From Magnetospirillum sp. (GTDB lineage Bacteria; Pseudomonadota; Alphaproteobacteria; CACIAM-22H2), in assembly GCA_027532905.1 (NCBI GenBank), contig JAPZUA010000001.1, positions 335,565-399,564 of the forward strand: a DNA stretch of 64,000 nucleotides. Reading direction: 5' to 3'. The number at the start of each line of letters is the position of its first letter. Positions within the stretch are counted from its first letter, which is position 1. Position numbers and translations under genes: made by a program. This document shows positions 6,141 to 18,983 of this stretch, in pieces. The notes beneath the pieces are model-generated. The model made no database searches and was not told the DNA's origin. It saw only the letters and a list, made by a program, of their open reading frames with translations.

Positions 6141-7121
6141 ATGAAAAACACCGCCCTCGCCCTCGGTTTTGCCGCCGCCCTCGTCGCGGCCCCCGCCTTC
6201 GCGCAGACGGCACCGGCCGTGATGTTCGACGTCGGCGGCAAGTTCGACCGCTCGTTCAACCAAGCCGCCTTCGAAGGGGCCGAGCGCTTCAAGCGCGAAA
6301 CCGGCCAGCAATATGCCGAGTTCGAAATCCGCAACACCGCCGAGCGCGAACAGGCGATCCGCAATCTGGCGCGCCGCGGGGCGTCGGTCGTCGTTGCTGT
6401 CGGCTTCAGCAACCGGGCAGCGGTCGAAACCGTCGCCAAGGAATTTCCGGACGTGAAATTCACGCTGATCGACAGCGTCGTCAATCTGCCCAACGTGCAG
6501 TCGATCACCTTCCGCGAGCATGAAGGCTCGTTCCTGGTCGGCATGGCCGCCGCCATGGCGAGCAAGACCGCGAAGGTCGGCTTTGTGGGCGGCATGGACA
6601 TCCCGCTCATCCGCAAATTCGCCAAGGGCTACGAAGAGGGTGCCAAGCACGTCAACCCGCAGATCGAAGTGGTCCAGAACATGACCGGCACCACGCCCGC
6701 CGCCTTCGCCGACCCGACGCGCGGCGGCGAGCTTGCGCGCGGCCAGTTCGATCGCGGCGTCGACGTCGTCTATGCGGCGGCAGGGGCCACGGGCCTCGGC
6801 GTCTACCAAGCCGCCAAGGACGCGGGCCGCCTCGCCATCGGCGTCGACAGCAACCAGAACCATCTGCATCCCGGCACGATGCTGACCTCGATGATCAAGC
6901 GCGTGGACGTGGCCGTCTACAACGCGATGTCGGACGCCCGCAAGGGCACGTGGAAGGCCGGTGCCACCTCGCTCGGCCTCAAGGAAGAAGGTGTCGGCTA
7001 CGCAATCGACACGAACAACCGCGCCCTCGTGACGGCCGACATGGAGCGCCGCATCAACGAAGCGCGCGACGCGATCATCGCGGGCCGCCTGCAGGTGACC
7101 GACGTCACGGCCCAGCGCTAA
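6141..7121 (+). CDS. BMP family nucleoside-binding protein (ABC transporter)
   Basis: This is a 326-residue periplasmic protein with a clear Sec signal peptide cut after AFA (about residue 21). The mature part begins PAVMFDVGGKFDRSFNQAAF, the D-x-G-G-x-F-D-x-S-F-N motif of the BMP/PnrA family that binds purine and other nucleosides. It delivers substrate to the ATPase and two permeases encoded directly downstream (3 bases to the next start, then 4- and 1-base overlaps). Neighbouring purine nucleoside phosphorylase and deo genes make nucleosides the likely cargo. Start is ATG 6141 behind a purine-rich GGAGACT site. Confidence 0.9.
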   Translation: MKNTALALGFAAALVAAPAFAQTAPAVMFDVGGKFDRSFNQAAFEGAERFKRETGQQYAEFEIRNTAEREQAIRNLARRGASVVVAVGFSNRAAVETVAKEFPDVKFTLIDSVVNLPNVQSITFREHEGSFLVGMAAAMASKTAKVGFVGGMDIPLIRKFAKGYEEGAKHVNPQIEVVQNMTGTTPAAFADPTRGGELARGQFDRGVDVVYAAAGATGLGVYQAAKDAGRLAIGVDSNQNHLHPGTMLTSMIKRVDVAVYNAMSDARKGTWKAGATSLGLKEEGVGYAIDTNNRALVTADMERRINEARDAIIAGRLQVTDVTAQR

Positions 7122-7124
7122 AAC

Positions 7125-8684
7125 ATGGCCGGGGAACCCGCGCTCGACCTTGCCCTCGAACTTGTGGGCATCGACAAAAGGTTCGGCGCGGTCCACGCCA
7201 ATCGGGCGGTCGATTTGTCCGTCGCGAAAGGCTCGATCCACGGCATCGTGGGCGAGAACGGGGCGGGCAAATCGACGCTGATGGGCATCGTCTACGGCTA
7301 CTACGCGGCCGATGCGGGCACCATCCGCGTCGACGGCAAACAGGTGCGCATCGCCTCGTCGCAGGACGCGATCGCGGCGGGCATCGGCATGGTGCACCAG
7401 CATTTCATGCTGGTCGAAAATTTCACCGTGCTCGAAAACGTGCTGCTGGGGGCCGAAGGTGGCGCCCTGCTCAAGAAGGGCGAAGCGGCCGCACGCGCAG
7501 CGCTCGGCAAAATCATGGCCGATTACGGGCTCGAGGTCGATCTCGACGCGAAGATCGAAACGCTCGACGTGGGCACGCAGCAGCGCGTGGAAATCCTCAA
7601 AGCGCTCTATCGCGGTGCCCGCATCCTGATCCTCGACGAGCCCACGGCCGTGCTCACGCCGCAGGAGGCGGATGCGCTGTTCCGCCTGCTCGACACGTGG
7701 CGCAGCCAAGGCCGCACGGTCATCCTCATCACGCACAAATTGCGTGAGATCCTCGCGGCAACCGACCGCGTCACGGTCATGCGCCAGGGTGCGGTCGTCG
7801 CCACGCGCGACACGGCAGCGACGAGTCAGGAAGAACTCGCCGAACTCATGGTCGGGCGGCGCGTGCAGCTGCGCGTCGCCAAAGACGCGTCCGTGCCCGG
7901 TGCCGAAGTGCTGCGTGCTGAGGGCTTGCGCTACGTCGATGCGCGCGGCGTCGAGCGGTTGCGCGGCGTGTCGCTCAATGTACGTGCCGGCGAGATCGTC
8001 GGCATCGCCGGCGTGTCCGGCAACGGGCAGAGCGAATTGCTCGAAGCGCTCGCAGGTTTGCTGCCGCTCAATGGCGGCGAAATTTTCTACAAGGGCGAAA
8101 AACTCGCCCCGCCGGGCACGGCCGCCGCAAGCCGGGCGGCACGCCTGCACGGCATCGCGCACGTGCCCGAGGACCGCCACCGCATGGGCATGGTCGTGGG
8201 CTATTCGGCGGCCGAGAGCACGATCCTCGGCTATCACGGCGACGAAGAATTGGGCCTCGGGCCGCTCTTGTCGAACCGCGCCGCCACGGCGCGCACCGCG
8301 CGCCTGATGGGTGCTTTCGACGTGCGCCCGGCGACGCCCGCGTTGCGCTCTGGCAATTTCAGCGGCGGCAACCAGCAGAAGATCGTGCTCGGCCGCGAGA
8401 TCGACCGCGATCCCGAATTGCTGCTGATCGGCCAGCCGACGCGCGGCGTGGATATCGGCGCCATCGAATTCATCCATCGCCGCCTCGTCGCGATGCGCGA
8501 TGCGGGCAAAGCGATCCTGCTCGTGAGCTGCGAACTCGACGAGATATTGGGGCTCGCCGACCGCATCCTCGTGATGTTCGACGGCCGCATCGTGGGCGAG
8601 CTTGCGCGTGCGGCGGCCGACGAGCGAGCGCTCGGCCTCATGATGGCCGGTGTGGAACCCGCACCTGCGGCAGCCGCACAATGA
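7125..8684 (+). CDS. nucleoside ABC transporter ATPase, two fused ABC domains
   Basis: The 519 residues contain two ABC ATPase domains. The N-terminal domain (about 10-240) has Walker A GENGAGKST, Q-loop HQHFMLVENF, a diverged signature (VGTQQRVEILKAL) and Walker B ILILDEPTAVLTP. The C-terminal domain (about 260-505) has GVSGNGQSE in place of Walker A and the signature SGGNQQKIVLGRE, as usual for the RbsA/YufO-like class. In the second Walker B region the glutamate is replaced (LLIGQPTRGVD), also common in this class, so ATP hydrolysis is expected mainly at the first site. It energises import with the two permeases. Confidence 0.9.
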   Translation: MAGEPALDLALELVGIDKRFGAVHANRAVDLSVAKGSIHGIVGENGAGKSTLMGIVYGYYAADAGTIRVDGKQVRIASSQDAIAAGIGMVHQHFMLVENFTVLENVLLGAEGGALLKKGEAAARAALGKIMADYGLEVDLDAKIETLDVGTQQRVEILKALYRGARILILDEPTAVLTPQEADALFRLLDTWRSQGRTVILITHKLREILAATDRVTVMRQGAVVATRDTAATSQEELAELMVGRRVQLRVAKDASVPGAEVLRAEGLRYVDARGVERLRGVSLNVRAGEIVGIAGVSGNGQSELLEALAGLLPLNGGEIFYKGEKLAPPGTAAASRAARLHGIAHVPEDRHRMGMVVGYSAAESTILGYHGDEELGLGPLLSNRAATARTARLMGAFDVRPATPALRSGNFSGGNQQKIVLGREIDRDPELLLIGQPTRGVDIGAIEFIHRRLVAMRDAGKAILLVSCELDEILGLADRILVMFDGRIVGELARAAADERALGLMMAGVEPAPAAAAQ

Positions 8685-9778
8685 ATGCGGGTGCGCGCCT
8701 GCCGCGTTGGGTCGATCTGGGGCTCCTGCCGCTGCTCAATCTTGCGGCGGCCTTCCTGCTGTCGGGCCTCGTCGTGCTCGCGATCGGCGAATATCCGATC
8801 AAAGCCTTGCGCATCCTCGTGAACGGGGCCATCGGCTATCCCGAGGCGATCGCCTTCACGCTCTACTACACGACCAATTTCATCCTCACCGGCCTTGCGG
8901 TCGCACTCGCCTTCCATGCCGGCCTCTTCAATATCGGCGGCGAAGGCCAGGCTTACGTGGCCGGCCTCGGCGTGGGCCTCGCGTGCCTCTATCTCGATTT
9001 TCTGCCCGGCTACGCCGTGGTGCCGATCGCGATCCTGGCGGCCGCCGCCTTCGGGGCCGCGTGGGCCGCAATCCCGGGCTGGCTCGAGGCCTATCGCGGC
9101 AGCCACGTGGTCATCACCACGATCATGTTCAACTTTCTTGCGGCCGCGCTGATGACCTATCTCATCACCAACTGGCTGCTCGATCCCGCCCACGGGGCGC
9201 CCGAAACGCGGCGTTTCGCCGCCCACACGACCTTGTGGACGATGCAGGAGATGCTCGGCTGGTTCGGCATCAAGGCCCCGCGCTCGCCGCTCAATGCGGC
9301 GTTTTTCCTCGCACTGGCCGCCGCCGTGTTCGTGTGGATCTATGTGTGGCACAGCCGGGCCGGCTACCGTTTGCGCACCGTGGGCAGCAGCCACAAGGCG
9401 GCGCTCTATGCCGGCATCGATCCCGCACGCACCATCGTCGTCGCGATGGCGATATCGGGTGCGCTTGCTGGGCTCATGGCCGTCAACGAAATCCAGGGCG
9501 CGCAAGCGCGCCTGCTTTTGTCGTTCACCGGCGGCTACGGCTTTGTCGGCATTGCGGTGGCGCTGATGGGCCGCAACCATCCGGTCGGCGTGTGCCTGGC
9601 GGCGCTCTTGTTCGGCGCCCTCTACCAGGGCGGGGCCGAGCTTGCGTTCGAGATGCGCAACATCAACCGCGAAATGGTGATCGTGATCCAGGGTCTCATC
9701 ATCCTGTTCTGCGGCGCGCTCGAAAACATGTTCCGCCCCACCCTCGCGCGGATGTTCGCCGCCCGCGGGGCCGCGTGA
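8681..9778 (+). CDS. nucleoside ABC transporter permease 1
   Basis: This is a 365-residue polytopic permease of the BPD_transp_2 family (YufP-like). It begins 4 bases inside the ATPase gene (ATGA overlap). The stretch FHAGLFNIGGEGQAYVAG is the conserved FNIGGEGQ motif of BMP-linked transporters, and GFVGIAVALMGRNHPVG is the conserved C-terminal segment. With the following permease it forms the inner-membrane channel. The order binding protein-ATPase-permease-permease is the normal one for this family. Confidence 0.9.
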   Translation: MNAGARLPRWVDLGLLPLLNLAAAFLLSGLVVLAIGEYPIKALRILVNGAIGYPEAIAFTLYYTTNFILTGLAVALAFHAGLFNIGGEGQAYVAGLGVGLACLYLDFLPGYAVVPIAILAAAAFGAAWAAIPGWLEAYRGSHVVITTIMFNFLAAALMTYLITNWLLDPAHGAPETRRFAAHTTLWTMQEMLGWFGIKAPRSPLNAAFFLALAAAVFVWIYVWHSRAGYRLRTVGSSHKAALYAGIDPARTIVVAMAISGALAGLMAVNEIQGAQARLLLSFTGGYGFVGIAVALMGRNHPVGVCLAALLFGALYQGGAELAFEMRNINREMVIVIQGLIILFCGALENMFRPTLARMFAARGAA

Positions 9779-10752
9779 TGGAAGACATCGTCATCCAGAC
9801 CGTGTCGCTGCTGGCCTCGACCGTGCGCTTGGCAGTCCCGCTGATCTTGTGCGCGCTTGCGGGCCTGTTCGCGGAGCGCTCGGGCGTGGTCGATATCGGA
9901 CTCGAAGGCAAGATGCTGGCAGGCGCATTCGCCGCCGCCTCGGTCGCGTTCTGGCTGCAATCGGCGTGGGCGGGCTTGGCGGCCGCGATGCTCGTATCGA
10001 TCGCGTTTGCGCTCGTGCACGGCTTTGCCTGCATCACGCATCGCGGCAACCAAGTGGTGGCGGGCATGGCGCTCAACGTGCTGGCTGTGGGGCTTACGGC
10101 CGTGCTCGCCTTCGCATGGTTCCAGGAAGGCGGCAAGACGCCCGCTTTGGCGGACGCCGCACGCTTCCGGCCGCTGCACTTGCCGTTCGCAGCCGAGATC
10201 GCCGGCGTGCCGGTGATCGGGACCATCTATACGCGGCTGCTGTCCGGCCACAATGCGCTTGTCTATCTGACGGCGGCCCTGGTGCCGGTCGTCGCGTTCG
10301 TCGTGTTCCGCACGCGTTTCGGCCTGCGCTTGCGCGCGGTCGGCGAAAATCCGCACGCGGTCGACACCGCCGGCATTTCGGTCGCGCGCTTGCGCTACCA
10401 AGCAATGCTCGCGAGCGGTGCCTTGTGCGGCATTGCGGGTGCCTATCTTTCGACGGCGCAATCGGCCTCGTTCTTGCGCGAGATGACGGCAGGCAAAGGC
10501 TTCCTCGCCCTTGCCGCCCTCATCTTCGGCAAATGGATGCCGATCCCGACCTTGTTCGCGTGCCTGATCTTCGCGTTTGCCGACGCACTCCAAGGCCGCC
10601 TGCAGGGCGTTGCCCTGCCGGGTATCGGCGTGGTTCCTGTGCAGGCGATCCAGGCCCTGCCCTATCTGCTCACGATCCTGCTGCTCGCAGGCTTCGTGGG
10701 CAAAGCGCATGCGCCGCGCGCGAGCGGCATTCCCTACAGCAAGGAAAAATGA
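9778..10752 (+). CDS. nucleoside ABC transporter permease 2
   Basis: This is a 324-residue permease (YufQ-like) whose ATG shares one base with the preceding TGA (TGATG). The motif GLFAERSGVVDIGLEGKM is the hallmark of the second permease of BMP-type transporters. GFLALAALIFGKWMP near the C-terminus is also conserved. About eight hydrophobic helices are visible. It pairs with the previous protein in the inner membrane. Confidence 0.9.
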   Translation: MEDIVIQTVSLLASTVRLAVPLILCALAGLFAERSGVVDIGLEGKMLAGAFAAASVAFWLQSAWAGLAAAMLVSIAFALVHGFACITHRGNQVVAGMALNVLAVGLTAVLAFAWFQEGGKTPALADAARFRPLHLPFAAEIAGVPVIGTIYTRLLSGHNALVYLTAALVPVVAFVVFRTRFGLRLRAVGENPHAVDTAGISVARLRYQAMLASGALCGIAGAYLSTAQSASFLREMTAGKGFLALAALIFGKWMPIPTLFACLIFAFADALQGRLQGVALPGIGVVPVQAIQALPYLLTILLLAGFVGKAHAPRASGIPYSKEK

Positions 10753-11594
10753 CGATGACGGCGACGACGACGGCCGGCCCGCACGATGCCGCGAAGTTCC
10801 TGCATGCGCGTTTGGGCGCGCGGCGCCCCAAAGTCGCGATCGTGCTGGGTTCGGGCCTTGGGCCGCTCGCCGACCGCGTGGAAGACGCCGTCGCGATTCC
10901 CTACGGCGAAATCCCCGGCTTCCACGTGTCGAGCGTGGCAGGCCATGCCGGCCGCCTCGTCGCCGGGCGTTTGGCCGGCGTCGAAGTCGCGTGCCTGCAG
11001 GGCCGCGTGCATCTCTACGAGGGCGTGGAACCCGCCGCGATCAAGCAGCCGATCCGTACGCTCAAAGCGCTCGGCATCGAGCGGCTCGTGCTGACCAATG
11101 CCGCCGGCAGCTTCCACATGAGCAGCGACGAAGGCTCGCTTGTGCTGCTGAGCGACCATATCGCGTGGGCGGGCTTGAACCCGCTGGTCGGCCCCAACGA
11201 CGACGAATGGGGCGGGCGCTTTTTCCCGATGACGGACGCCTATGACCCTGCGATGCGCGACGTGCTGAAAGCAAACGCGGCCAAGCTCGGCATCGCGTTG
11301 CCCGAGGGCGTGTATGCCTGGTATCTCGGTCCCAATTTCGAAACGCCGGCCGAAATCCGCGCGTTGCGCGGCATGGGTGCGGATCTCGTCGGCATGTCGA
11401 CCGTGCCCGAAGTGCTGGTCGCCCGCCATTGCGGCCTGCGCGTGGTCGCAGTGAGTGCGATCACGAACATCGCGGCGGGCATGCGCAAAGGCCAGCATTT
11501 GAGCCACGACCACACGCAGAAAATCGCCAAGCTTTGCGGCGAGCGCCTTGAAAAACTGCTGACCGCGAGCCTCGCCGATCTTCTGACGGCCTGA
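10749..11594 (+). CDS. purine nucleoside phosphorylase
   Basis: The 281-residue enzyme splits purine (deoxy)nucleosides with phosphate to the free base and (deoxy)ribose 1-phosphate. Family motifs are present in order: VLGSGLGPLAD (phosphate loop), GHAGRLVAG, QGRVHLYEG, LTNAAGS, GPNFETPAEI, GMSTVPEVLVARHCGL and ITNIAAG. Length and motifs fit the trimeric PNP class (PunA/XapA type). The ATG overlaps the permease stop (ATGA), so the gene belongs to the import operon: nucleosides are taken up and then cut at once. Confidence 0.92.
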   Translation: MTMTATTTAGPHDAAKFLHARLGARRPKVAIVLGSGLGPLADRVEDAVAIPYGEIPGFHVSSVAGHAGRLVAGRLAGVEVACLQGRVHLYEGVEPAAIKQPIRTLKALGIERLVLTNAAGSFHMSSDEGSLVLLSDHIAWAGLNPLVGPNDDEWGGRFFPMTDAYDPAMRDVLKANAAKLGIALPEGVYAWYLGPNFETPAEIRALRGMGADLVGMSTVPEVLVARHCGLRVVAVSAITNIAAGMRKGQHLSHDHTQKIAKLCGERLEKLLTASLADLLTA

Positions 11595-11599
11595 GCGCG

Positions 11600-12298
11600 C
11601 TAGAGCGTCGGCCAGAATTTGTCCCAGCCGGTGCGGATGCGGACCCAGAAGGCCGGGTCGGGCAAAACCTCGACCTGCACGCCTTCGCGCGCTTCGGCAT
11701 CCCACACGAAGAGATGCGCGCGTGCCGCACGGCAGACCATCAGCTGGTGTTGGATCTGCGCATAGTCCGACGGCAGCGTGCGGCCCGCGACCGCCAAGCG
11801 CCAACGCTCGTGCGCGCGTCCGCGATAGGGCGTCTTGATTTCGAGCACCGTGCGGCAATCGGCCGAAATTCCGTCAAGACTGCAGCCATACGCCCCATCC
11901 ACATACATGGCCGCATCGGCAGCCCCGTGCTTCTCGGCATAGGCCGCGCGCGCAAACGGCTCCTGTTCGGTGCCCTTGCGCATCGCGGCATTCACGAAGA
12001 TGCGTTTGCCGCGCTTTTCGTCGCGCAGATTGGCAAGTGCGTTCGAGAACGACGACAGCCCAAGCACCGCAGGCGTTTCGCTTGCCATACGCAAGGTCCG
12101 ACGAAGGGCGCGCCACGCGTCGGTCCCTTGTGCGATCTCGACGCGCTGCGGGCGGGCGGATGGCAGGCTTGCAAGCGGATCGTCGGGCCCTTGCGTGTCG
12201 GCCAGAAACGCCGCATCGCACGCTTGGCACGCGATGGGTCCGCGATGGCGCTCGGGCACCTCGCATTCGGCAACGCAGACGGGGCATAGACGAATCAT
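11600..12298 (-). CDS. YqaJ/lambda-exonuclease-like nuclease with N-terminal zinc ribbon
   Basis: The product has 232 residues. Residues 5-27 hold CPVC...CQAC, a probable zinc ribbon. From about residue 50 the chain resembles the YqaJ/lambda exonuclease fold: ALRRTLRMASETPAVLGLS matches the helical start, and YGCSLDGISADCRTVLEIKTPYRG gives the D...E-x-K metal site of this nuclease superfamily. KGTEQEPFARAAYAE is the usual segment before it. The family digests linear DNA 5' to 3' and is normally phage-borne beside a recombinase such as RecT or Bet; no partner is present here. Instead the gene sits on the opposite strand between the phosphorylase and deoC genes, with 5 bases to the former. A housekeeping or DNA-scavenging role is conceivable but inferred. 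Confidence 0.75.
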   Translation of the reverse strand: MIRLCPVCVAECEVPERHRGPIACQACDAAFLADTQGPDDPLASLPSARPQRVEIAQGTDAWRALRRTLRMASETPAVLGLSSFSNALANLRDEKRGKRIFVNAAMRKGTEQEPFARAAYAEKHGAADAAMYVDGAYGCSLDGISADCRTVLEIKTPYRGRAHERWRLAVAGRTLPSDYAQIQHQLMVCRAARAHLFVWDAEAREGVQVEVLPDPAFWVRIRTGWDKFWPTL

Positions 12299-12393
12299 CG
12301 AATTTTTCCCACCACGCGACGCAGCGCCCTTTGCCTGAATCGCAGGAAAATGCTAGCACCTGGGCCTTCGAAACCCCCGGAAATTCCGCCCCC

Positions 12394-13137
12394 ATGACCG
12401 ACCAGGATTTTGCGCTGCGCGCTTTGGCAGCCCTCGATTTGACGAGCCTCAACGACGGCGACGACGCGGCCGCCGTCGAGAAGCTCTGCCGGCGCGCGAC
12501 CACGCTCTACGGCAATGTCGCCGCCGTCTGCGTGTGGCCGCGTTTTGTCGGCGTCGCCAAAGCCTCGCTCGCGGGCAAACCCATCAAGATCGCGTGCGTG
12601 GCGAATTTCCCGAGCGGCAGCGAGGCGCGCGCCGACGTACTCGCCACGGTCGAAGCGGCCTTGCGGGACGGGGCCGACGAGATCGATCTCGTCTTCCCCT
12701 ATCGCGAATGGCTGCGCGGCGAAACGGTGAAGGCCGAAACGATGGTGGCGACCGTGAAGCAAGCCTGCGGCAACAAGAAGCTCAAGCTCATCCTCGAAAG
12801 CGGCGCTTTCCCCGACATGGCGCGCCTTGCCGCAGCGTGCAAAGTCGGGCGCGATGCGGGGGCCGACATGCTCAAAACCTCGACCGGCAAGATCCCGACG
12901 GGCGCCACGCCCGAGGCTGCGCGCGTGCTGCTGGCGGCGGGCGGGGGCTTCAAAGCATCGGGCGGCGTGCGCACGCTCGCCGATGCCAAAATCTATCTTT
13001 CGCTCGCCGACGAAGTCCGCGGCCCCGGCTGGGCCACGCCCGACAATTTCCGCATCGGCGCTTCGGGCCTGCTCGACGTGCTGCTCGCGATCCTCGACGG
13101 CCGCACGGCCGCCGCCCAAGAATCGGCCGTCTATTGA
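12394..13137 (+). CDS. deoC: deoxyribose-phosphate aldolase
   Basis: This is a 247-residue TIM-barrel aldolase that cleaves 2-deoxyribose 5-phosphate to acetaldehyde and glyceraldehyde 3-phosphate. The Schiff-base lysine lies in MLKTSTGK and the second active-site lysine in GGFKASGGVR; NFPSG and EIDLVFPY are also family segments. Length matches the family. The ATG at 12394 opens a plus-strand deo operon (deoC-deoA-deoB, gaps of 5 and 3 bases), and about 95 bases separate it from the divergent YqaJ-like gene, where the promoter must lie. Confidence 0.93.
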   Translation: MTDQDFALRALAALDLTSLNDGDDAAAVEKLCRRATTLYGNVAAVCVWPRFVGVAKASLAGKPIKIACVANFPSGSEARADVLATVEAALRDGADEIDLVFPYREWLRGETVKAETMVATVKQACGNKKLKLILESGAFPDMARLAAACKVGRDAGADMLKTSTGKIPTGATPEAARVLLAAGGGFKASGGVRTLADAKIYLSLADEVRGPGWATPDNFRIGASGLLDVLLAILDGRTAAAQESAVY

Positions 13138-13142
13138 CCGCC

Positions 13143-14459
13143 ATGCTGCCGCAGGAACTGATCGCCAAGAAGCGCGACGGAACGCGTCTCGACGACCATG
13201 AAATCGGCCAGCTCGTCGCCGGCATTGCCGACGGCAAGGGCTTGGCCGACGCGCAAGTGGGTGCCCTTGCCATGGCGCTGTTCCTGCGCGGGCTCGATAC
13301 GGGCGAGCGCGTGGCACTCACGCGCGCGATGACCGCCTCGGGCGACACGTTGCGCTGGGACGATCTCGATCTGCCCGGCCCCATCGTCGACAAACATTCG
13401 ACCGGCGGGGTCGGCGACAAGGTGAGCCTGATGCTGGCGCCGTGGGTCGCAGCGTGCGGCGGCTACGTGCCGATGATTTCGGGGCGCGGGCTCGGGCACA
13501 CGGGCGGCACGCTCGACAAGCTCGGCAGCATTCCGGGCTACGACGCGGTTCCGGACAATGTGCGCTTCCGCGCCTGTGTGCGTGACGTAGGCTGTGCGGT
13601 GATCGGCCAGACCGCCAATCTCGCTCCGGCCGACAAGCGCCTCTACGCGATCCGCGACGTGACCGCGACGGTCGAATCGATCGGCCTCATCACCGCCTCG
13701 ATCCTGTCGAAGAAACTCGCGGCGGGCTTGGACGCGCTCGTGATGGATGTGAAGTTCGGCTCGGGCGCTTTCATGCCCAGTTACGAGAAATCGCGCGAGC
13801 TTGCGCTGTCGATCGTCGACGTCGCCAACGGCGCAGGCCTCAAGACGCGCGCGTTGCTGACCGACATGGACAGCCCGCTCGGGCGGGTCGCCGGCAACGC
13901 GCTGGAAGTGCGCGATGCGATCGCGTTTCTCAAAGGCGACGGCGACGCGCGCACGCTTGCCTGCACACGCGCTTTGGCTGTCGAGATGCTGGATCTTTCC
14001 GGCATTGCGCCACGCGATGAAGCAGGCGCCAAGCTCGATGCCGCCTTGGCGAGCGGTGCAGCGGCCGAGCGTTTCGCGCGCATGGTCTCGGCCCTTGGCG
14101 GCCCCGCCGACCTTATGGAGCGGCCGGACAAATATTTGGCGCAAGCCCCGATCGTGCGCGAAGTGCCGGCCTTGGCGGCGGGCTTTGTCGAAAAAATCGA
14201 TACGCGGCAGGTCGGGCTCGCCGTCGTCGATCTCGGCGGCGGACGCACCGATCCAGCTGCCGCGATCGATCCGGCCATGGGCTTTGTCGAGCTTGCGGAG
14301 ATCGGCGCCAGCGTCGGCCCTGGTGCGCCGGTCGCGATCGTGCATGCGCGCGACGAAGCCAGTGCCGCGCGCGCTTCTCTTCGCTTACAAAACGCCTATC
14401 GTATCGGCGCGACGCGAAGTGCTTCGGGTGCGGTCGTGCGCGAAACCTTGGGAGCTTGA
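13143..14459 (+). CDS. deoA: thymidine phosphorylase
   Basis: The 438-residue enzyme releases thymine or uracil from pyrimidine deoxynucleosides, giving deoxyribose 1-phosphate. The phosphate-binding KHSTGGVGDK, the motif SGRGLGHTGGTLDKL and the segment MDVKFGSGAFMP identify the type III nucleoside phosphorylase family. It starts 5 bases after deoC and is followed 3 bases later by deoB. Its product is the substrate of DeoB. Confidence 0.93.
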   Translation: MLPQELIAKKRDGTRLDDHEIGQLVAGIADGKGLADAQVGALAMALFLRGLDTGERVALTRAMTASGDTLRWDDLDLPGPIVDKHSTGGVGDKVSLMLAPWVAACGGYVPMISGRGLGHTGGTLDKLGSIPGYDAVPDNVRFRACVRDVGCAVIGQTANLAPADKRLYAIRDVTATVESIGLITASILSKKLAAGLDALVMDVKFGSGAFMPSYEKSRELALSIVDVANGAGLKTRALLTDMDSPLGRVAGNALEVRDAIAFLKGDGDARTLACTRALAVEMLDLSGIAPRDEAGAKLDAALASGAAAERFARMVSALGGPADLMERPDKYLAQAPIVREVPALAAGFVEKIDTRQVGLAVVDLGGGRTDPAAAIDPAMGFVELAEIGASVGPGAPVAIVHARDEASAARASLRLQNAYRIGATRSASGAVVRETLGA

Positions 14460-14462
14460 GCG

Positions 14463-15632
14463 ATGGCGCGCGCGTTTGTGCTGGTTATGGACTCGTTCGG
14501 CATCGGTGCGGCCCCCGACGCGGCGCGCTTCGGCGATGTGGGGGCCGACACCTGGGGCCATATCCGCGCGGCGCACAAGCCGTACGTGCCCAATCTCGTG
14601 CGCCTTGGTCTTGATGCCGCCCACGCGACCGCGACCGGTTTGCGTTACGACGGCCCGCCGCCGCAAGCCTGGCACGGGGCCGCGCGCGAGCGTTCGTTCG
14701 GCAAGGACACGCCCTCGGGCCATTGGGAAATGGCGGGGGTACCCGTCGAATTCGATTGGGGCTATTTCCCGAAGACCGTGCCGAGCTTTCCGGCGGCTTT
14801 GATTTCCGAACTCGTCGCGAAGGCAAAGCTGCCCGGCGTGCTCGGCGATTGCCACGCTTCGGGCACGCAGATCATCGACGAACTCGGGCTCGAGCATATC
14901 GCGACGGGCAAACCCATCGTCTATACCTCGGCCGACAGCGTGTTCCAGATTGCCGCGCACGAAAGCCATTTCGGCCTCGCTCGGCTGCTCGAGCTCTGCA
15001 AGATCGCGTTCGAGCTTGTGCAACCCTACAAAATCGCGCGCGTGATCGCACGGCCCTTTGTGGGCGACACTCCCGGCCGCTTCAAGCGCACGGCCAATCG
15101 CAAAGACTATGCGGTGCGCCCGCCCGCCCCCACTTTGTTCGACAAACTCACGGACGCCGGGCGCAAGACGATCGCCATCGGCAAGATCGGCGACATCTAT
15201 GCCCATCAAGGCACGCAGGAAGAAATCAAAGCCGACGGCAACGACGATTTGATGGTCAAGACTTTGGCCGCGATCGCCTCGGCCCCCGACGGCAGCTTCA
15301 CGATGACCAACTTCGTCGATTTCGACACGCTCTTCGGCCATCGCCGCGATGCGGCCGGATACGCCGCAGCCTTGGCGGAATTCGACCGGCATCTGCCCAC
15401 GGTCGAAGCCGCACTGCGCCCCGGCGATATCGCCGTATTGACCGCCGACCATGGCTGCGACCCGACCTGGCCCGGCAGCGACCATACGCGCGAACATGTG
15501 CCCGTGCTGTGCTTCGGTCCCGGCCTCGAAGGCCGGGACCTCGGCGCACGCGACAGTTTTGCCGATATCGGCCAGAGCTTGGCAGCCCATCTCGGCATCG
15601 CCCCGCTCGGCCACGGCAAGAGCTTTATCTAG
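14463..15632 (+). CDS. deoB: phosphopentomutase
   Basis: The 389-residue metalloenzyme converts (deoxy)ribose 1-phosphate to the 5-phosphate, linking the phosphorylases to DeoC. The N-terminal metal site is [15 protein letters not shown]. The phosphorylated threonine lies in [26 protein letters not shown] and [21 protein letters not shown] supply the other metal ligands, as in the alkaline phosphatase superfamily. It is the last gene of the deo operon and converges with the reductase gene 11 bases away. Confidence 0.94.
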
Positions 15633-15643
15633 CCTGCCCCCGC

Positions 15644-16480
15644 TTAACCAAGCCAAGCCGCGCGGTGGTCTTTGGCATAGGTCGCAAACGCGATCGGCTT
15701 GCGGCCCACGATTTTTTCGACCGAATCCTCGATGCGCGCCGCATAGCCCGCCTTGAAGTAACCGAGAATGACGAGCAGGAACTCGGCATAGGCCTGCGGT
15801 AAGCCAGCGCCGAGCAGGCCTTGCAGCATTGCTTCGGGGGCGATGTCTTCAAACGTGATTCTTTTACCTGTTTCGCACGAGAGGATAGCCGCAACTGCAT
15901 CGTGGTCGAGCGCTTCGCTGCCCGTAAGGTCGAAAGCTTGGCCGTCATAGCGGCTCGACGTCAGCAATTTGGCCGCAACGGCCGCAATGTCGCGCGCATC
16001 GATGAAACTGCCTTTGGCCGTGCCCACTGGTAGGCGGATTTTTCCTTCCGCCAGGATCGAGCCAATCCAATAGCTGTTGAAATTCTGCATGAACCAGTTC
16101 GGGCGCACGATGTTGTAGGCAAGGCCCGCCTTCTCGAGATGCAATTCGGCTTTGCGCAGCGGTGCGGCATCGTCGGCATTGGCCCCCATCGCGGTCATCA
16201 GCACGATCTTGCCGACACCCGCCGCTTTGGCCGCGTCGATAAGCGGGATCATCAACTGATCCTGGTTCGTGAAGCCGGGCGGCGACAAGAAGAATGCGCG
16301 CGCCACGCCGCCAAACGCCGCCGCGCGGCCTTCGCCGGTCGCGAGATTCAAATGTACCTCGTCCGCCTGCTGCGGCTGTTTGCTCGTGGCCCTCAGAACC
16401 GTTTCGTCCTTGGCAGTCAAAAGCCGCACGAGATTGCTGCCGACCGTGCCGTTCGCGCCGACGACCAAAGTTTTTGCCAT
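15644..16480 (-). CDS. NmrA-like NAD(P)-binding reductase
   Basis: This is a 278-residue protein with an N-terminal Rossmann motif VVGANGTVGSNLVRLL (GxxGxxG) and the atypical short-chain-dehydrogenase layout of the NmrA/QOR2 group. The segments ARAFFLSPPG, GVGKIVLMTAMGA, RPNWFMQNF and GSFIDARDIAAVAA are typical. No classical YxxxK pair is evident, as in other NmrA-like members. Members act as quinone reductases or redox sensors; the substrate here is unknown. It is divergent from the AraC regulator, which is the likely controller. Confidence 0.8.
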   Translation of the reverse strand: MAKTLVVGANGTVGSNLVRLLTAKDETVLRATSKQPQQADEVHLNLATGEGRAAAFGGVARAFFLSPPGFTNQDQLMIPLIDAAKAAGVGKIVLMTAMGANADDAAPLRKAELHLEKAGLAYNIVRPNWFMQNFNSYWIGSILAEGKIRLPVGTAKGSFIDARDIAAVAAKLLTSSRYDGQAFDLTGSEALDHDAVAAILSCETGKRITFEDIAPEAMLQGLLGAGLPQAYAEFLLVILGYFKAGYAARIEDSVEKIVGRKPIAFATYAKDHRAAWLG

Positions 16481-16583
16481 GTGGATGTTCCTTTGCGGAT
16501 GAGATCGAGGCCGCAGGTTCGCCGGAAAAGATGGAACGTTTAATGGCTAAAAATACAGTTTCCATGTCTAAACGTACTGATAT

Positions 16584-16598
16584 ATCGTATTCTACGAT
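16584..16598. promoter_or_regulatory. inverted repeat ATCGTA-TTC-TACGAT, possible operator
   Basis: Exact 6-base arms separated by three bases lie in the AT-rich stretch between the divergent reductase and regulator genes and touch the proposed ATG at 16597. The setting fits self-binding by the AraC-type regulator or a dimeric repressor site. No binding data; AraC proteins more often use direct repeats. Confidence 0.3.
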
Positions 16599-17544
16599 GG
16601 ATTTGTTGAGCGATATTCTGCGCCAGGCGGGCCTGCGCCATCGCGTGCTCGATCTGCGCGCCTTGACGCCTGCCCAAGCGCTGCGCTTTCCGTGCGACAA
16701 GAGCCTTGGCCTGCATGTGGCGCTGCAAGGCCCCGTCTATATCCACAGCCCGGGGCGGGCGGCACCGCTCGCCTTGCAGTCCGGCGATATCGCGATCATG
16801 GCGCGGGGGCACGACCATGTGGTTGCGACCGATACCAAGCTCGACAAACGCCGCATTGCGACGATCTTCGACCAGCCGACAGGCAGTGTGCGCCCGCTCG
16901 TGCCGGTCGGGCGCTGCCGGCTCATCAGCGGCGCCTACCAATTCTGGAACGCGCCGATCCATCCGTTTTTCGCCACGCTGCCCGATTGGTTCGTGCTGCG
17001 GGGGGCCGAATTGCCGCGCCTGGGGCCCGTCGCGTTGACCGTGGGCCTCGTCGGCGAAGAAGCCGCCAATGCGGGGCCCGGGGCGCAGACGATTCTGCAC
17101 GGGCTGCTCGACGTGCTGTTCGCCTATCTGCTGCGCGAGATCGCGGCGCGCAATGCAGAAACCGGTCCCGGCCTCGGCAAAGCGTTGGCCGATGCGCATG
17201 TGAAACAGGCGATCGCGTTGATGCATGCCGACTATGCGCGCGGCTGGACGCTGGAGGCGCTGGCCGAAGCGGTCGGCCTGTCGCGCACGCGGCTCGCCGA
17301 ACGGTTCCGCGCGGCCATGGACGACACGCCGCTTTCCTACTTGCGCACTGTGCGCATGCAAGCCGCGATGCGGCTCTTGAGCGAAACCGACAAGAAGCTC
17401 GACGACGTCGCGGCGCAAGTGGGCTACCAGGACGCGTTCGGTTTCTCGAAGGTGTTCAAGCGCACGGTTGGCGTCGCGCCCAAGGAATTCCGCCGCCGCG
17501 ACCACGAAGACCGCGCTTCGCCGTGGCGGCTTACCGCATCGTGA
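16597..17544 (+). CDS. AraC family transcriptional regulator
   Basis: The 315-residue regulator has an N-terminal cupin-type sensor domain (about 1-190, with LGLHVALQGPVYI and GDIAIMARGHDHV) and a C-terminal double helix-turn-helix (about 200-305). The second HTH ends VAAQVGYQDAFGFSKVFKRT and VGVAPKEFRRR, the AraC signature. Start ATG 16597 was chosen because the cupin family begins with D-x-L-S-D-x-L (here MDLLSDILRQ) and the DNA before it is AT-rich and promoter-like; in-frame ATGs at 16531, 16543 and 16564 are possible. It probably controls the divergent NmrA-like reductase gene. Confidence 0.85.
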   Translation: MDLLSDILRQAGLRHRVLDLRALTPAQALRFPCDKSLGLHVALQGPVYIHSPGRAAPLALQSGDIAIMARGHDHVVATDTKLDKRRIATIFDQPTGSVRPLVPVGRCRLISGAYQFWNAPIHPFFATLPDWFVLRGAELPRLGPVALTVGLVGEEAANAGPGAQTILHGLLDVLFAYLLREIAARNAETGPGLGKALADAHVKQAIALMHADYARGWTLEALAEAVGLSRTRLAERFRAAMDDTPLSYLRTVRMQAAMRLLSETDKKLDDVAAQVGYQDAFGFSKVFKRTVGVAPKEFRRRDHEDRASPWRLTAS

Positions 17545-17572
17545 CCGAGCGTTCCGCTTTTTTGCGGGCGAT

Positions 17573-17586
17573 TTGACGCACGTCAA
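17573..17586. promoter_or_regulatory. FNR/FixK-type box TTGAC-GCAC-GTCAA
   Basis: A perfect palindrome of the CRP/FNR oxygen-responsive class lies 35 bases before the hemN start. Its centre is about 42 bases upstream of the ATG, which is the position from which such regulators activate a start site placed right at or just before the ATG. It fits the known low-oxygen control of hemN by FNR, Anr or FixK. No regulator gene for it is visible in the window. Confidence 0.7.
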
Positions 17587-17621
17587 TTCGTGCACGCGGC
17601 GACTTGGGCACACTCGGGTCT

Positions 17622-18983
17622 ATGCAAAACCCGGAAACGCTGTCCCGCGCCGAAACGCTCGTCCCCCGCTACACGAGCTATCCCACCGCCCCGCATTTCA
17701 CGCCGCAGGTCGGGGCCACCGCCGTCGGCGGCTGGCTCGAGCGGCTCGATCCCACGCACGGCGTGTCGGTCTATATCCACGTGCCGTTCTGCGCAAAGCT
17801 GTGCTGGTATTGCGGCTGCAACACCAGTGTGTCGGCTCGCTACGAGCCGGTGCGCAGCTATTTCGACACGCTGCTCGACGAAATCGCCGCCGTGCGTGCG
17901 CTGCTCAGCGGCAAGCTGCGCGCAAGCCACGTGCATCTGGGCGGCGGCACGCCGAATGCGCTCGCTGCAGCCGATCTGGCCCGCCTCGCCGACGCTTTGC
18001 GCAACACGTTTGCGTTCGATGCCGACACGCGCTTCGAGGTCGAGATCGATCCGCGCACGCTCGATGCCGCGACCGCACGTGCACTCGCTGACGCCGGTGT
18101 CACGCGCGTCAATCTCGGCATCCAGGATTTCGACCCGAAAGTGCAGTCGGCCATCAACCGCATCCAACCGCTCGAGCTTGTCGGCGAGAAGCTGGCCCTG
18201 CTCTACGGGGCCGGCCTCGAACAGTTCGGCGTGGATCTGCTCTACGGCCTGCCCTACCAAACGCCCGACACGCTCGCGCGCACGGTGGCACAGGTGGACG
18301 AGTTGGGTGCGAGCCGCGTGGCTTTGTTCGGCTATGCGCATGTGCCGTGGATGAAGCCGCACCAGAAACTCCTCGAGCCGCACGGCCTGCCCGACACGGC
18401 CGAGCGTTTGGCGCTCGCCGCCTCGGCGCATGTGGCATTGGCGCAGCGCGGCTATGCGCGCATCGGCATCGACCATTTCGCGCGTCCCGACGACGAAATC
18501 GCCGTGGCGGCGCGCGACGGCGTGCTGCGGCGCAACTTCCAGGGCTACACGACCGACACGGCCGACACGCTGCTGGGCTTCGGCCCGTCGGCGATTTCGG
18601 CCTACGCGCAAGGCTATGCGCAGAACCATACGCGCCTCGACAGTTGGCAAGCTTCGGTCAAAGAAGGCAGCTTGCCGGTCGCGCGCGGCTTGAGCCTCAG
18701 CGGCGAAGACCGCGTGCGGCGCAACGCGATCGAACGGCTGATGTGCGACATGACGGTCGATCTCGGCAAAATCGCGCAAGCGCATCGGCTCGCCGCCCAC
18801 CCGCTCGATTATTTCGCGACGTCGCTCGCCCAGATCGACCGGTTGGCGGCGGACGGGCTGTGCATCCGCAACGGCCTGCGCGTCACAGTACCGCCCGGCA
18901 TGGCCAACTACGCGCGCATCGTCGCGTCCGCGTTCGACCAATATCTGGCGCGCGGCGACGCCAAGCATTCGGTCGCGGTCTAA
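17622..18983 (+). CDS. hemN: oxygen-independent coproporphyrinogen III dehydrogenase
   Basis: The 453-residue radical-SAM enzyme decarboxylates coproporphyrinogen III to protoporphyrinogen IX without oxygen, for haem synthesis under low oxygen. YIHVPFCAKLCWYCGCNT holds the CxxxCxxC cluster with the extra HemN cysteine. VHLGGGTPNAL, VNLGIQDFDP and GVDLLYGLPYQTP follow the family order, and the N-terminal PRYTSYPTAPHF is the HemN-specific segment. Start ATG 17622 lies just downstream of an FNR/FixK-type box, so transcription is probably raised when oxygen is scarce. Confidence 0.93.
   Translation: MQNPETLSRAETLVPRYTSYPTAPHFTPQVGATAVGGWLERLDPTHGVSVYIHVPFCAKLCWYCGCNTSVSARYEPVRSYFDTLLDEIAAVRALLSGKLRASHVHLGGGTPNALAAADLARLADALRNTFAFDADTRFEVEIDPRTLDAATARALADAGVTRVNLGIQDFDPKVQSAINRIQPLELVGEKLALLYGAGLEQFGVDLLYGLPYQTPDTLARTVAQVDELGASRVALFGYAHVPWMKPHQKLLEPHGLPDTAERLALAASAHVALAQRGYARIGIDHFARPDDEIAVAARDGVLRRNFQGYTTDTADTLLGFGPSAISAYAQGYAQNHTRLDSWQASVKEGSLPVARGLSLSGEDRVRRNAIERLMCDMTVDLGKIAQAHRLAAHPLDYFATSLAQIDRLAADGLCIRNGLRVTVPPGMANYARIVASAFDQYLARGDAKHSVAV

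Follow-up and report, generated by a model that had tools for sequence, protein, structure and literature searches.

Phages normally pair exonucleases of the lambda type with an annealing protein, and lambda exonuclease releases 5′-mononucleotides. A cellular counterpart is MbovP701 of Mycoplasma bovis, a YqaJ nuclease without a known annealing partner, which degrades double-stranded DNA from 5′ to 3′ and whose mutant has a growth defect; this example (PMC11678175) shows that partnerless enzymes of this kind can matter to cells. With respect to gene order, a relevant precedent is the noncontiguous operon defined by Saenz-Lahoya et al. (reviewed in PMC7154746), exemplified in Staphylococcus aureus by menE-menC-MW1733-ytkD-MW1731, in which one gene on the opposite strand lies within an operon.

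Here we describe a gene, NUC, that can be set beside these systems and that lies in a 64,000-nucleotide stretch of a Magnetospirillum sp. genome (the window; contig JAPZUA010000001.1, positions 335,565 to 399,564). Its product shares with lambda exonuclease and LHK-exo the predicted fold, the active-site residues and the absence of a long C-terminal tail, but is 20–26% identical to them, alone bears an N-terminal zinc-ribbon-like head, has no annealase partner, and is encoded by a single chromosomal gene in a metabolic operon. Like MbovP701, it belongs to the YqaJ nucleases encoded by cells and has no known annealing partner, a likeness in description; MbovP701 comes from a different bacterium, and the portion of its report drawn on here does not mention a ribbon (PMC11678175). 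We favor, with moderate confidence, the reading that NUC derives from a phage recombination exonuclease and has been domesticated for DNA-end processing in the host; on this view the deo genes are an address and not a pathway.

Results

A minus-strand gene sits inside a nucleoside operon

Between 6.1 and 15.6 kb of the window, the plus strand carries, in order, a BMP-type ABC importer, a purine nucleoside phosphorylase, deoC, deoA and deoB, and the only minus-strand gene in this interval is NUC:

6147..10752, plus strand: BMP-family (PnrA-like) nucleoside-type ABC importer, comprising a binding protein, an ATPase and two permeases (PF02608, PF00005, PF02653 twice)
10758..11594, plus strand: purine nucleoside phosphorylase (PNP), upstream gene of the interrupted junction (PF01048, E 7.5e-51)
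11595..11599: 5-bp gap between the PNP and NUC stop codons, which lie tail to tail (read from the sequence)
11600..12298, minus strand: NUC, a probable domesticated lambda-exonuclease/YqaJ-family nuclease of 232 amino acids (PF09588, TIGR03033, structural model, orthologues in place in three congeners)
12299..12393: 95 bp separating the divergently oriented NUC and deoC, possibly holding one or more promoters (from alignment)
12394..13137, plus strand: deoC, encoding deoxyribose-phosphate aldolase, on the downstream side of the interrupted junction (PF01791, E 4.9e-21)
13149..15632, plus strand: deoA-like pyrimidine nucleoside phosphorylase (PF00591/PF02885/PF07831) and deoB-like phosphopentomutase (PF01676)

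A first-pass annotation of the window had proposed a lambda-exonuclease-like nuclease at 11600–12298, between PNP and deoC; both the open reading frame and its placement agree with what we find, PNP ending at 11594 and deoC starting at 12394. It left out two points, namely that NUC is antisense to the whole nucleoside operon, and that NUC interrupts an ancestral overlap of PNP and deoC. Farther downstream, a hemN-like gene follows NmrA-like and AraC-like genes in the window genome (G000; window 15644–18983) and in two congeners that also carry NUC (G002 and G003); in a third (G004; L018, 13761–17050), it comes directly after deoB, ahead of the NmrA-like and AraC-like genes.

The open reading frame is not a chance one, as it matches both the Pfam YqaJ family (PF09588; 51.6 bits, E 1.7e-13, cut-off 22) and the NCBIfam lambda-exonuclease family (TIGR03033; 69.5 bits, cut-off 68.05), and among PHROGs it matches RecE-like exonucleases (5.7e-17). 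Differences at first, second and third codon positions across the four carrier species (0.09, 0.07 and 0.30), together with a dN/dS of 0.17–0.32 between carriers, confirm that it is coding. That ratio, set against 0.09–0.23 for the neighboring genes, indicates that the protein is kept under purifying selection slightly looser than that on its neighbors. The GC3 of NUC (0.76–0.81) is near that of the neighboring genes, and NUC is the single YqaJ gene found in its own genome.

NUC entered an intact junction, apparently once

Orthologues of NUC occupy the identical place in congeneric species G002, G003 and G004 (85, 87 and 66% identity), whereas in six non-carrier congeners (G001, G005, G006, G008, G009 and G010) the PNP stop codon and the deoC start codon overlap as ATGA, an arrangement also present in a genome of an outgroup genus (G012). 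In a tree of PNP, DeoC and DeoA, the four carriers form one clade (100/100). The same site within one clade, alongside empty sites in non-carriers, points to one insertion of one gene that split the ATGA junction, and on this comparison a single-gene, single insertion is the simplest history of NUC. Most congeners manage without it, and four species are known as carriers. The first-pass annotation would have been undermined had the gene been missing from this place in all relatives or had it lain there within a decayed prophage; neither was seen, and the non-carriers have an intact junction.

An intact lambda-exonuclease active site behind a zinc-ribbon-like head

Alignment of the four orthologues, with lambda exonuclease and the viral relatives described below, divides NUC into three parts:

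12197..12298, minus strand: zinc-ribbon-like head, residues 1–34 (C5, C8, C24, C27; cysteines invariant, absent from viral relatives)
12137..12196, minus strand: conserved linker, residues 35–54, ADT..PDDPLASLP.A.PQR (65% of columns invariant)
11603..12136, minus strand: lambda-exonuclease-like nuclease domain, residues 55–232 (from lambda exonuclease alignments; active-site residues invariant in four orthologues)

Within the nuclease domain, where 69% of columns are invariant among the four orthologues, R66, S73, E113, D142, E153, K155 and Q181 align with lambda exonuclease R28, S35, E85, D119, E129, K131 and Q157, residues established as belonging to its active site; all seven are kept in NUC and are invariant in the orthologues. 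A structure predicted from the four sequences reached a pLDDT of 50 and was discarded for a version built on a 26-row alignment, whose mean pLDDT is 94.6. The best structural matches to this model are LHK-exo (Z 18.9, rmsd 2.5 over 167 residues) and, alongside it, lambda exonuclease (Z 18.5, rmsd 3.0 over 180), so that the predicted structure has the restriction-endonuclease-like fold of lambda exonuclease. Family profiles, active-site residues and modeled fold thus all uphold the earlier assignment to the lambda-exonuclease type. To judge by fold and active site, NUC most likely acts as lambda exonuclease does, as a Mg2+-dependent enzyme, probably a ring-shaped (toroidal) trimer, that degrades one of the two strands of linear double-stranded DNA, starting at the 5′ end.

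The CPVC...CQAC motif reported in the first-pass annotation is present in the head. All four cysteines (C5, C8, C24 and C27) of the C-x2-C plus C-x2-C pattern are invariant across the four orthologues, yet only 38% of the ribbon columns are, and the pattern suggests that the head would bind zinc. No named zinc-ribbon family in Pfam or NCBIfam matches the head of the window protein; PF13717, the MJ0042-type ribbon (Zn_ribbon_4), gives the G004 orthologue 14.3 bits, below the cut-off of 30.3, and the window protein no match. When the head was compared with the proteins of the host genomes, an MJ0042-type ribbon of a DUF3426 protein was nonetheless among the nearest matches (E 0.01). The ribbons of host DUF3426 proteins likewise place CxxC...CxxC at the start of the protein, but the loop of the NUC head is shorter and its score is below the Pfam cut-off, so the resemblance is one of pattern, with homology unproven. 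One such host protein, an MJ0042-type ribbon joined to DUF3426, is encoded outside the window in the same genome (G000:C1; L161, 1318–2217; PF13717, 9.2e-14), and similar proteins occur in congeners. No other ribbon-bearing copy of the nuclease was found in samples of the class (385 genomes) or of the phylum (398 genomes).

These properties bear on the earlier suggestion that NUC was recruited to trim DNA and feed nucleotides into the deo pathway. Its seat between genes for nucleoside import and breakdown speaks for such salvage, and so does the partnerless YqaJ nuclease of M. bovis, which affects growth and for which nutrition is discussed (PMC11678175). However, NUC lies on the strand opposite to the pathway and got there by a single insertion into a closely packed operon junction, and the six non-carriers possess the full pathway without it. 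The product is also wrong, as the pathway takes nucleosides, whereas lambda exonuclease yields mononucleotides. Moreover, NUC has no visible signal peptide, its ribbon beginning at residue 5, and would therefore have no access to environmental DNA. We accordingly rejected salvage, which we regard as very improbable. What stands of the proposal is the general idea of recruitment, which is well supported; nucleotide feeding is not supported, given the opposite strand and lack of an export signal, and of the two roles first put forward, host repair would be the better one.

The closest relatives of NUC are paired with annealases in viruses

A viral scan with the four NUC orthologues alone returned no relative; viral relatives were reached with a degenerate DNA pattern, followed by wider alignments and further patterns. 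Ten viral exonucleases from IMG/VR (L084, L085, L052, L098, L099, L106, L086, L088, L103 and L053) are 41–56% identical to NUC, making the viral ERF-paired enzymes its closest sequence relatives. Unlike NUC, these ten carry a tail of 91–95 amino acids past the nuclease domain and no cysteine ribbon before it, and they adjoin annealase genes: an ERF match was obtained for nine of nine upstream neighbors tested and an SSB match for both downstream neighbors tested, SSB being adjacent in several cases. NUC is without this C-terminal tail of about 93 residues, and the DNA pattern of its linker was not found in viral contigs. Short viral forms that also lack the tail do exist (L104, 497–1090, and L105, 7728–8285; 43% identical), and gain of the head, loss of the tail and capture of the gene may have come in any order. 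The tail-less L105 has a Sak annealase upstream in place of ERF, a hint that presence of the tail may be linked to the kind of annealase.

A tree of the exonucleases unites the four host proteins as a clade (100/99) and places it within the viral ERF-paired enzymes, with weak support for its exact sister (82/54). Searches for RecT, ERF and Sak found none in the four carrier genomes, which are drafts (94–98% complete), confirming for these families the earlier impression that NUC has no recombinase partner, adjacent or elsewhere in the genome; its neighbors are nucleoside genes. Given the ERF-paired viral relatives and the carriers without an annealase, NUC most likely derives from a phage recombination cassette, minus the annealase. 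Two other YqaJ genes (L019/L013 and L020/L017) occur in G010, a non-carrier; a RecT gene lies 0.8 kb from one of these, and a second RecT is on another small contig.

That the nearest relatives are phage proteins would also fit the remains of a decayed prophage that is being lost. Against this, no other phage gene lies at the site in any of the four species, as the first-pass annotation had noted for the Magnetospirillum copy; the insertion is precise and comprises a single gene; and the reading frames are intact in all four species, with purifying selection maintained over substantial divergence. On these grounds we rejected a decaying prophage, which we consider the least probable of the explanations weighed here.

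An antisense seat without room for a terminator

The PNP and NUC stop codons lie 3–5 bp apart in G002 and G003 as well, and in G004 the two genes overlap. Because this spacing leaves no terminator space, PNP transcripts probably read into NUC; no convincing terminator was found. If such transcripts reach deoC, the arrangement suggests a noncontiguous operon, whose layout of a reversed gene within an operon, with no space for a terminator, is seen here. As in S. aureus (PMC7154746), a single gene is turned against the operon around it; co-transcription across NUC is putative.

It is possible, though we hold it to be doubtful, that NUC is kept mainly for mutual antisense regulation with a polycistronic PNP-deoCAB mRNA, even if its protein is still a nuclease; the nuclease would then be silent during nucleoside catabolism and expressed when catabolism is shut off. 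The lone minus-strand position of NUC, the missing terminator space and the fit to the S. aureus layout speak for it, but deoCAB may be served by a separate promoter within the 95-bp divergent region, and the low dN/dS, together with catalytic residues and cysteines that are all intact, shows selection on the NUC protein itself. Within that region, the conserved block CCCTTTGCCTG..TCGC.GGAAAATGCTAGCACCTG recurs in three species and is weak in G004, and it is possibly a promoter or operator of NUC or of deoC. Neither a match to a sigma-70-type consensus in the intergenic region nor a LexA-type operator (GTTC-N7-GTTC) upstream of NUC was found. A bolder combination, in which a phage exonuclease, rid of its annealase and fitted with a ribbon as targeting head, has become a host enzyme wired antisense to nucleoside catabolism, making resection of DNA ends and breakdown of nucleosides mutually exclusive, strikes us as unlikely.

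Discussion

The domestication that we favor has the following course. An exonuclease gene, most likely from a viral cassette of the ERF-exonuclease(-SSB) type, entered once and alone, before the four sister species diverged, and landed antisense exactly between PNP and deoC. Its product, tail-less and with an MJ0042-like zinc-ribbon head that the ERF-paired viral relatives lack, has since been kept under purifying selection. Free of the phage annealase, it may serve the host by resecting or clearing DNA ends, with the resulting single-stranded DNA passing to host RecA and SSB; the ribbon may dock the enzyme either to DNA or to some partner in the host. AddA is present in seven of seven genomes tested, carriers and non-carriers alike, so NUC adds to this machinery and does not replace it; with breaks already resected by this other route, a repair role for NUC is not obviously needed. 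The lack of a LexA-type operator upstream and the small number of known carrier species likewise count against the favored reading.

This redundancy with AddAB for ordinary repair, the patchy occurrence of NUC in the genus and the new ribbon head on a captured phage nuclease could instead speak for defense against invading linear DNA, such as phage genomes or linear fragments. PADLOC, however, gave no match, and NUC lies outside any defense island, has no partner gene, and keeps a stable position without gene turnover, leaving defense an improbable role.

As a case of domestication NUC is a clean one, in that the donor type, the empty ancestral site, the single gain, the changed ends and the lasting selection are all visible. 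Each of its elements has precedent; what is unusual is the combination of a single-gene capture, with its empty site, changed ends and an antisense seat in a metabolic operon. With NUC it can be tested what role a lambda-type exonuclease plays in a cell once its annealase is gone, and whether an antisense gene within an operon joins in the control of that operon.
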